Of a stretch of DNA of 64,000 nt, positions 16,271-17,683 are shown piece by piece. The notes under the pieces are model-generated. The model did not search any database and was not told the DNA's origin. It saw only the letters and a program-made list of their open reading frames with translations. This DNA is from Lentzea guizhouensis (GTDB lineage Bacteria; Actinomycetota; Actinomycetes; Mycobacteriales; Pseudonocardiaceae), in the NCBI RefSeq assembly GCF_001701025.1, contig NZ_CP016793.1:310001-374000 (forward strand), written 5' to 3'. The position numbers were made by a program, and so were the translations under genes. The number at the start of each line of letters is the position of its first letter. Position 1 is the stretch's first letter.

Positions 16271-16302
16271 TTGACCTTGGAGTGCGGTCACAGGTTTAGC
16301 GT
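16271..16302 (+). promoter_or_regulatory. MerR-type promoter with elongated spacer
   Basis: TTGACC (16271-16276) and TTAGCG or TAGCGT (16296-16302) are separated by 19-20 bp, the long spacer typical of MerR-controlled promoters. A dyad ACCT...AGGT (16274-16295) and TGACC...GGTCA lie inside the spacer. The predicted start of transcription falls at about 16309, the A of the merR ATG, so the mRNA may be leaderless and the gene autoregulated. Confidence 0.6.
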
Positions 16303-16308
16303 GGCGGT

Positions 16309-16680
16309 ATGAGAGTCGCCGAGCTCGCACGCCACGTCGGGGTCGCACCGGACACGGTGCGGTACTACGAGCGCGCGGGGCTGCTCGCGCCGCCGCCGCG
16401 GACGTCGTCGGGCTACCGGCAGTACCCGGAGGCGGCGGCCGAGCGGATCCGGTTCATCCGCGACTGCCGGCGCCTCGGGCTGACGTTGCGGGAGATCGCC
16501 TCGCTGCTGGCGGTGCGCGACACCGGCGAGTGCCCGTGCGAACCGGCGTCGGAGCTGCTGCACCGGCATATCGCGGACATCGACGCCGAGATGGCCCGGC
16601 TCGCGCGGCTCAGGTCCGAGCTCGAGGAGATGGTCGAGAGCACCGACTGTCCCCCGTGGTGCCCACCGGAGGGGAGGTGA
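16309..16680 (+). CDS. MerR-family metal-responsive regulator
   Basis: The 123-residue regulator has the MerR winged helix (VAELARHVGVAPDTVRYYER, GYRQY), a dimerisation helix, and cysteines at 53, 75, 77, 114 and 118. The pairs CPC (75-77) and CPPWC (114-118) sit where ZntR/CadR-type sensors bind metal, so a soft or borderline metal (Zn, Cd, Pb, Hg, Cu) is likely. No transporter gene adjoins it. Its stop overlaps the ATG of a six-cysteine micropeptide (TGATG), apparently its only co-transcribed partner. Confidence 0.85.
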   Translation: MRVAELARHVGVAPDTVRYYERAGLLAPPPRTSSGYRQYPEAAAERIRFIRDCRRLGLTLREIASLLAVRDTGECPCEPASELLHRHIADIDAEMARLARLRSELEEMVESTDCPPWCPPEGR

Positions 16681-16724
16681 TGGAAGTGGAGGACGACTGC
16701 TGCACGTGCTGTGAGTGCTGCTGA
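16680..16724 (+). CDS. 14-residue cysteine-rich micropeptide, putative metal chelator
   Basis: ATG 16680 overlaps the merR stop by one base and is preceded by GGGAGG (16671-16676). It encodes MEVEDDCCTCCECC, with cysteines at 7, 8, 10, 11, 13 and 14 and an acidic N terminus. The CC-x-CC-x-CC pattern resembles the clusters of metallothioneins and phytochelatin-like ligands. Translational coupling to a metal-type MerR supports a role as metal buffer or chaperone. No homolog is known to me, so function is inference from composition and context. It could instead be substrate or cofactor for the radical SAM enzyme downstream. Confidence 0.6.
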   Translation: MEVEDDCCTCCECC

Positions 16725-16900
16725 TTGAACTGACGCGTTCTATTAGCGGCTTATGCGTTTCGGCGTGGCGCCCGCCGAATCTTCTGGGAAGATGTCAACA
16801 CCCCAACATCAATCCCTGAATTTATCAATTGAGACAGCTCCACTGCCGACTTGCCGGGGCAAGATGGGTTATGGACCGGCAACGTCCAGGGGAGCGGGAC

Positions 16901-17683
16901 ATGACCGACCTGCGATTCGCATGGCTCGAGATCACCGGCAAATGCCAGTTGAGCTGCACACACTGCTACGCGGAGTCCGGACCGCGCGGGGGCACCGGTG
17001 CGATGACGGCTCGCGATTGGTTCCGCGTCATCTCGCACGTCGCCGAACTCGGTGCGCACCGAGTTCAGTTCATCGGCGGAGAACCCACATTGCACCCCGA
17101 TTTGGCGCGGTTCGTGGACCACTCACTCGCCGCGGGACTCGAAGTCGAGGTGTTCAGCAATCTCGTGCACATCGCGCCCGCCCTGTGGGAGACGTTCACC
17201 CGCCCCGGCGTCCGCCTCGCCACGAGCTACTACTCGGCCCACGACGCCGTCACCCGCCGCCCCGGCAGCCACGCCCGCACCACCGCGAACATCACCAAGG
17301 CCCTCGACCGCGCCATCCCGCTGCGGGTGGGCGTGATCGACGTGGGCTCCGGCTCGTCCGACGCCCTGGTCGAGCTCGACGCCCTCGGCGTGCGCGACGT
17401 CGGCGTCGACACCGTCCGCGCGGTCGGCCGCGGCACTGCTCTGTCGTCTCCCGGCCCTGACCAGCTCTGCGGCCGCTGCGGTCACGGCGCCGTCGCCGTC
17501 TCCACGTCGGGCGACGTGTGGCCGTGCGTCTTCGCTCGCTGGATGGCGCTGGGCAACATATTGGACATGGATCTTGCCGACGTGCTGCTCAACGCGGCTC
17601 CGGTAGCTCCCGTCACCGCCGGCCCGTCGTGCTGGCCCCAGGGCGGCGGCTCCTGCGCCCCTAACGAACCGCCCCGCCCCTGA
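16901..17683 (+). CDS. Radical SAM protein with SPASM-like cysteine region
   Basis: The 260-residue protein has C15-x3-C19-x2-C22 (KCQLSCTHC), which binds the radical SAM iron-sulfur cluster, and the GGEPTLHP motif. The C-terminal [12 protein letters not shown]...WPC cysteines suit a shortened SPASM/twitch auxiliary cluster, and the tail [12 protein letters not shown] adds two more. ATG 16901 with AGGGGAG upstream is preferred. Such enzymes often modify peptides, but no clear precursor lies directly upstream. The 176-bp gap 16725-16900 is AT-richer than its surroundings and probably holds the promoter. The 3' end overlaps the convergent kinase gene by 23 bp. Confidence 0.82.

Follow-up and report, generated by a model that had tools for sequence, protein, structure and literature searches.

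The locus described here lies within a 64,000-nucleotide stretch of the Lentzea guizhouensis genome (referred to below as the window), and the host genome is represented by one contig of 10 Mb. A gene on the forward strand (16309..16680; ATG at 16309, stop codon TGA at 16678-16680) encodes a 123-residue regulator assigned to the MerR family by Pfam and predicted-fold matches. It is preceded on the same strand by a MerR-type promoter/operator (16271..16302), recognized from its sequence and its recurrence across loci, and its stop codon is overlapped by a frame for a cysteine micropeptide (16680..16724), MEVEDDCCTCCECC or MEDDCCTCCECC depending on the start, which is defined by sequence and conservation. 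Two adjacent candidate ribosome sites, both GGAGG, are located inside the 3' end of merR (16668-16672 and 16673-16677), and a short G+C hairpin (16760..16778), read by eye and subjected to a fold test, follows the peptide frame on the same strand.

Both Pfam domains of the regulator, MerR_1 (1.1e-19) and MerR-DNA-bind (2.5e-19), score above their gathering thresholds and, together with the predicted fold, identify the N-terminal helix-turn-helix and the dimerisation helix of the MerR family. Among the NCBIfam models listed, the protein falls below the curated cut-offs for every named metal class, the nearest being MerR (106.2 bits; cut-off 150.85) and CadR-PbrR (101.2; cut-off 151.45), and by NCBIfam score it does not qualify as an equivalog of CadR/PbrR, ZntR, CueR or Hg-MerR. 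The predicted monomer (mean pLDDT 88.7) matches CadR most closely in the PDB and then PbrR691, with Tn501 MerR and CueR after them. The protein displays a CPC motif plus a C-P...W-C-P tail, and its cysteines, Cys75, Cys77, Cys114 and Cys118, are invariant in 15 aligned sequences, all chosen from the type that has W-C close to the C-terminus of MerR (W-C type, recognized by regular expression); they are candidate ligands in the MerR effector region. The last of them, at the position of Cys118, is lost in three relatives discussed below (L166, L224 and L227). Named copies in Lentzea alba and L. kentuckyensis are 85-86% identical to the window MerR.

The promoter consists of TTGACC (16271-16276) and a -10 box TAGCGT (16297-16302) separated by a 20-nt spacer, which contains the imperfect dyad TTGGAG...CACAGG, and only 6 nt separate the -10 box from the merR ATG. 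The merR mRNA is therefore probably leaderless, starting 6 nt past the -10 box. An earlier note on this DNA had proposed a promoter with a 19-20 bp spacer, a leaderless transcript and autoregulation of merR, and all three proposals are borne out or supported: the promoter stands directly before merR, and the same geometry, with a dyad, was found by one strict expression in 51 of the 83 peptide-bearing loci described below. The spacer is 20 nt long in every match, and the first in-frame merR start lies 6-8 nt past the -10 box in 49 of the 51 loci; the remaining 32 loci gave no match to that single expression. Within the 10-Mb genome, the operator site is unique at up to 3 mismatches, and a relaxed pattern is unique at up to 2. 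Because the operator occurs only once, no separate target, such as a second site at a pump gene, was found in this genome.

The micropeptide frame can be read from either of two starts. ATG 16680-16682 shares its first base with the merR stop codon (TGATG) and begins a 14-codon frame (MEVEDDCCTCCECC; stop at 16722-16724), and GTG 16686 would give a peptide of 12 residues (MEDDCCTCCECC). Both are provided with a GGAGG at 7-8 nt, one candidate being part of GGGAGG at 16672-16677 and the second lying at 16668-16672. The MerR with metal-type cysteines, the TGATG junction, the 14-codon frame with six cysteines and the GGGAGG reported earlier are all present in the sequence. The other nine Lentzea copies begin with ATG or GTG, 8-9 nt past the initial base of the merR stop codon and likewise 8-9 nt past GGAGG; the equivalent start in the window is GTG 16686, and the peptide may start there rather than at ATG 16680. 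The overlap, which had been considered a defining trait, turned out to be unique to the window among ten close Lentzea copies. The six-cysteine spacing is common to 3 of the 10 (the window, L050 and L053), the other 7 having Ser, Gly or Ala at one of the six positions. Across the Lentzea peptides, five cysteine codons vary between TGC and TGT only, and a further position may hold Ser, Gly or Ala instead of Cys; pN/pS for the final ten codons of the 10 copies is 0.26. A Pfam scan of the enclosing 64-residue frame of the window yielded no match. Downstream of the peptide, the motif GGCG[T/A]GGCGCCCGCC was also recognized by eye in the nine other Lentzea copies, and the hairpin at 16760..16778 is a possible terminator that lacks a U tract. 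The fold of the region 16724-16830 is not exceptionally stable (z = -1.39), and a loose hairpin pattern does not exceed its chance frequency in the window.

By itself, the window proves little, because the bare cysteine pattern (TGY TGY NNN TGY TGY NNN TGY TGY) is not rare: it occurs at 4 sites in the 10-Mb genome, including that of the window. A survey based on this pattern matched 257 of 297 genomes and was dropped as too noisy. In three loci from one genus of the family (L039, L040 and L041), the pattern matches correspond to the cysteine-rich C-terminal tail of a longer protein, and no match to the window MerR was found in these stretches. Since the cysteine pattern alone does no more than chance, MerR homologues were collected instead. 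Searches of the 297 family genomes (E 1e-20) matched 79 and gave 92 places, of which 70 were examined, the other 22 scoring below 95 bits; a class-level survey matched 102 of 394 genomes, from which 29 loci were taken; and the best 80 of 574 confirmed MerR relatives came from a named genome collection. The 179 loci examined represent 160 distinct MerR loci. A peptide was called when an open reading frame of 8-45 codons with at least 4 cysteines started between -32 and +60 nt from the merR stop.

Such a frame was found in 82 of the 83 loci with a W-C-type MerR. At the remaining locus (L197), MerR, located at 1501 in reading orientation, continues without a stop into a peptide of this kind, the two sharing one frame. 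Conversely, 10 of the 11 loci with a W-R or W-K motif (W-R/K) are without the peptide, the eleventh (L181) having a frameshifted MerR, as are 61 of the 66 loci without a readable W-x-P motif. The five positives in the latter group are L052 (Leu-Cys, Lentzea), L160 (W-P-C), L166 (W-L), L177, with an open reading frame of 38 residues, and L184, the frame of which is probably there by chance. As controls, 586 other gene ends from these loci and 8300 first-order shuffles of the same downstream DNA were screened; a cysteine-rich short frame was called at 4 of the former and in 333 of the latter. The earlier note had named homologous merR loci lacking the frame as evidence against its proposal, and had suggested looking in actinobacteria for an overlapping frame with the same cysteine spacing. 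The outcome is largely favourable to the proposal: the frame is kept in the W-C type, although close W-R/K homologues lack it. The cysteine-rich short frame recurs, but neither the overlap nor the exact spacing is kept.

The peptides of 83 loci, 82 of the W-C type plus L052, were compared. They are 11-34 residues long (median 19) and contain 4-10 cysteines (median 6), with a median cysteine fraction of 0.35, which gives them the very small size and cysteine richness of metallothioneins. A Cys-Cys pair is present at the C-terminus of 60 of the 83. The order of abundance is C>D>G>E, and the 1647 residues include 361 acidic and 40 basic ones. Relative to merR, the peptide is encoded in frame 2, 1 or 0 in 63, 12 and 7 of 82 loci, respectively, and the chosen start is offset by -29 to +35 from the merR stop. 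GGAGG or AGGAGG stands 3-11 nt upstream of 74 of 83 starts, and some Shine-Dalgarno-like stretch precedes 82 of 83, in both cases with starts picked to favour a ribosome site and no null. Start, frame, length and cysteine spacing all drift across the family, and the exact spacing emphasized by the earlier note is not general. From the drift in frame, offset and spacing and the constant cysteine richness, we infer an independently translated peptide selected for composition rather than fold.

Outside the W-C clade, a few outlying MerR relatives are followed by longer cysteine-rich small open reading frames (L102:2523-2705, L183:700-894 and L177 near 4450). By eye, those of L102 and L183 have a cysteine-rich head and then a charged coiled-coil-like tail. 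The L102 frame has 12 database matches, one apparently to itself; none contains a Pfam domain, and the sole named match is a hypothetical protein.

A MerR tree was built from 157 rows with few columns, in which many forks are unresolved; L197 was scored with peptide and L184 without, and the trait test omitted L181. Peptide presence requires 5 changes on the tree, whereas shuffled labels require 51.4 on average. The W-C-type clade (support 81/80) comprises 86 loci with the peptide and 2 without, and both exceptions carry W-R, namely L058, beside a Saccharothrix copy, and L156 from Mycobacterium. A correlated-change test had no more than 3 usable pairs; peptide and cysteine change together in 2 of them, and the peptide does not differ in 1 (p = 0.5). 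Taken at the sequence level, the presence of the peptide is linked to the last cysteine of the sensor. The link is strong though not strict, because the peptide is kept in L166 and in L224/L227, all of which have W-L. Bearers of the pair belong to Pseudonocardiales, Micromonosporales, Geodermatophilales, Glycomycetales, Propionibacteriales, Micrococcales, Jiangellales, Streptosporangiales, Allobogoriellales and Egibacterales, and plasmid-borne copies in Rhodococcus (Mycobacteriales) bring the number of orders so far to eleven. The distribution is patchy: the pair is present in 11 of 24 same-genus genomes searched.

The plasmid collection (PLSDB) contained five MerRs close to that of L123, and four of the records were opened. 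Two of them, Streptomyces pFRL4 and a Mycobacterium abscessus plasmid, encode a W-R MerR without peptide, divergent from an annotated P-type ATPase. Both ATPases score best with the general heavy-metal model and the cadmium-family model, exceeding the cut-off of each, and also pass that of the copper subfamily, more narrowly (416.0 and 417.8 versus 397). Read by eye on the other strand, both intergenic regions contain the same 20-nt-spacer operator facing the ATPase. The other two, Rhodococcus plasmids (L224/L227), have identical MerRs with W-L and keep the peptide (MHDCCEDPMCPPELCGCGC); the PLSDB gene table, which is incomplete, lists nothing over it.

Among the surveyed loci, a P1B-ATPase was found in the flanks of 0 of 88 loci with the peptide versus 19 of 72 without it (160 distinct loci, unequal flanks), and, counting named loci only, of 0 of 63 versus 12 of 17. 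The contrast is suggestive only, because the flanks are unequal and many of the peptide-less loci are distant relatives. Among the surveyed W-R/K loci without peptide, a P1B-ATPase is present in 2 of 10 flanks and absent from 8; the gene in L156 (W-R) is divergent and 99% identical to that on the M. abscessus plasmid, and the one in L175 lies 2.3 kb away. Together with the two plasmids, 4 of 12 W-R/K relatives without peptide have a heavy-metal P1B-ATPase nearby. Judging from these comparisons, the peptide seems to stand in for the efflux pump in this sensor family. A paralogous W-R MerR clade within the same family (L067, L083, L084, L085, L086, L088 and L089) is likewise without peptide, and by eye no TTGAC dyad promoter was seen upstream of its genes.

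Neighbouring genes, called with a simple ORF picker, were inspected at 82 loci. A downstream gene was called at 80 of them; the nearest lies on the other strand in 50 cases and on the same one in 30. The opposite-strand gene is shared among 11 Amycolatopsis-group loci and among 10 Glycomyces loci; no downstream family is common to more than 11 of the 82 loci, and those that recur to that extent define single-genus groups. A scan of nearest-neighbour proteins covered 69 of 74, omitting five that were long or repeated; among the families listed (the first 25 of 89 and of 85), Pfam matches from diverse loci were scattered, with a minority of arsenic type. In the window, a radical SAM/SPASM gene (16901-17683) lies 3' of the micropeptide on the same strand, and it exceeds the cut-off of no NCBIfam class among those listed.

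Seeds for ACR3, ArsP, LMW-phosphatase/arsenate-reductase-type proteins, ArsO-like proteins and P1B-ATPases had no match in the window (E 1e-4), in agreement with the earlier statement that neither a transporter nor a reductase is present and that the operon may comprise sensor and peptide only. As far as its gene content tells, the operon seems to hold nothing beyond these two. Elsewhere, 11 of the 63 named peptide loci have arsenic-type genes no more than 4 kb away, versus 0 of 17 named loci without peptide (p = 0.11). The 11 loci (L122, L123, L130, L132, L137, L147, L148, L161, L166, L174 and L181) come from Virgisporangium, Enemella, Geodermatophilus, Modestobacter, Actinomadura, Micrococcus and a Nocardioidaceae MAG, and cluster in Geodermatophilaceae. 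The transporter in L174 is ACR3 by NCBIfam; two further neighbour classes contain the Pfam domains Pyr_redox_3 and LMWPc and are presumably ArsO and an arsenate reductase, respectively. An identification of arsenic as the metal from these neighbours was rejected, the association being non-significant and the cases clustered.

Collectively, these observations make it likely that the autoregulated sensor and a micro-metallothionein constitute a self-contained two-gene metal-buffering unit, with the peptide in place of a pump. The CadR/PbrR/MerR-like sensor would sit on the 20-nt-spacer promoter of its own gene and repress it until a thiophilic ion, bound by the conserved MerR cysteines, switches the promoter on by the mechanism typical of the family. 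The ion would most likely be of the Cd/Zn/Pb/Hg class and less likely As(III) or Cu(I); Cd/Zn/Pb-class ions are favoured because of the relatives with P1B-ATPases, and As(III) is kept in view from the ars neighbours. The predicted transcript carries merR and the tiny frame, the ribosome site of which lies inside the merR end and would allow its translation. The acidic peptide, about one-third cysteine, would bind the metal as a micro-metallothionein, lowering the free ion and resetting the sensor. An exchange of pump for peptide would account for the W-R/K relatives, which are without peptide and, in part, accompanied by a P1B-ATPase. The broader proposition, that micro-metallothioneins of 11-34 residues are the sole output of a MerR-type sensor and substitute for an efflux pump across the eleven actinobacterial orders in which the pair has so far been observed, is one that we advance with moderate confidence.

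Several alternative explanations for the peptide frame were considered. The peptide might act mainly as a partner of MerR, stripping metal from it or delivering metal to it, and tune the switch rather than provide bulk tolerance; its close genetic linkage to the W-C MerR type, translation possibly coupled to that of merR at the junction, the single operator in the genome and the one natural in-frame fusion (L197) would be in keeping with such a role. However, a fixed protein interface would not show the free drift observed in cysteine spacing and length, and the P1B-ATPase beside some peptide-less relatives points to a tolerance output, so that we regard this function as unlikely. The same fusion, in which MerR and peptide share one open frame, could also be taken to mean that the frame is an extension of MerR, reached by frameshift or read-through and forming a cysteine-rich tail of the sensor that is not separately translated. 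The variable relative frame of the two genes and the starts scattered from -29 to +35 around the merR stop, mostly with GGAGG, render this scarcely credible. As for a chance TGC-rich stretch after a regulator gene, four occurrences of the bare pattern in one genome would allow it, but the frame is present at 82 of 83 W-C loci versus 4 of 586 other gene ends and persists despite codon changes and in all three frames; a chance origin, to which we assign a vanishingly small probability, is refuted by conservation.

Two further possibilities involve the genes downstream. The cysteine codons could serve as a cysteine-responsive attenuator, a stalling leader for a gene farther downstream, and cysteine-rich regulatory short frames are known in mycobacteria (PMC9094748, in a passage citing Canestrari 2020). 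Yet the frame is located behind a regulator and not before a gene that it would control, 50 of 80 loci have their nearest downstream gene on the other strand, and no family recurs in more than 11 of 82, making attenuation very improbable. Alternatively, the peptide could be a precursor modified by the product of the SPASM-domain radical SAM gene, which comes next on the same strand in the window and would be its maturase. This linkage is not conserved, the gene being downstream in only 5 of 82 loci, all from Lentzea (L001, L045, L046, L048 and L049), whereas L047, L050, L051 and L053 have the peptide with a different gene downstream; moreover, a peptide of 12-14 residues is too short to include a leader. 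We therefore consider a maturation substrate extremely improbable.

Should the metal-buffering unit be confirmed, a sensor and a chelating peptide would amount to a complete homeostasis unit that is widespread and overlooked. Genes this short tend to escape annotation, and the incomplete plasmid gene tables are indeed blank over the peptide. The family offers natural cysteine-rich peptides of phytochelatin-like size, predicted to be made ribosomally, in which evolution has varied the length and cysteine spacing and each of which is tied to its own sensor. It also provides a comparative system, in which members of one sensor family occur beside a pump or beside a chelator-like peptide. If metal binding is shown, the peptides would, to our knowledge, be among the smallest gene-encoded metallothioneins.

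Several known systems resemble the merR-peptide pair in part. MymT, which is longer than the window-family peptides and under copper repressors, is likewise an actinobacterial metallothionein, as we propose for the latter. It is described in excerpts of PMC7387436 as a mycobacterial copper metallothionein important for copper detoxification. Mycobacteria also have tiny cysteine-rich frames (PMC9094748), but those discussed in the relevant part of that source regulate a gene downstream, whereas the window-family frame has no conserved downstream gene. The cyanobacterial SmtB-SmtA, BxmR-BmtA and AzuR-NmtA pairs feature a sensor beside, or acting on, a cysteine-rich metal-sequestering protein (passages in PMC8790569 and PMC7387436). 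As presented there, pairs of the SmtB-SmtA type rely on an ArsR/SmtB repressor; the window has a MerR-type sensor in one operon with a peptide of a family of 11-34 residues. The cyanobacterial metallothioneins of such pairs are longer than the peptides of this family. Another is CadR-Zrd of Pseudomonas aeruginosa (2025), in which, according to the portion of PMC12301328 concerned, a MerR-family Zn/Cd sensor switches on a small metal-binding protein likened to metallothionein; Zrd, however, has two zinc-ribbon domains and is encoded between two converging genes, whereas the window-family peptide shares an operon with its sensor. The sections of a survey of MerR-type metal regulons that bear on the question (PMC1526738) mention no such peptide, and no description of an actinobacterial merR-micropeptide pair was found in the open-licence literature. 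Sensor-metallothionein pairs with ArsR/SmtB sensors are already known. With the CadR, PbrR and MerR sensors, the window MerR shares the fold (CadR, PbrR691 and Tn501 MerR being matched), the dyad in a 20-nt spacer and the cysteines of the effector region. It differs from them in scoring below the NCBIfam cut-offs of the listed classes, in combining CPC with a C-P...W-C-P tail and in that no output other than its own operon with the micropeptide was found in its genome, in place of pump or mer genes.
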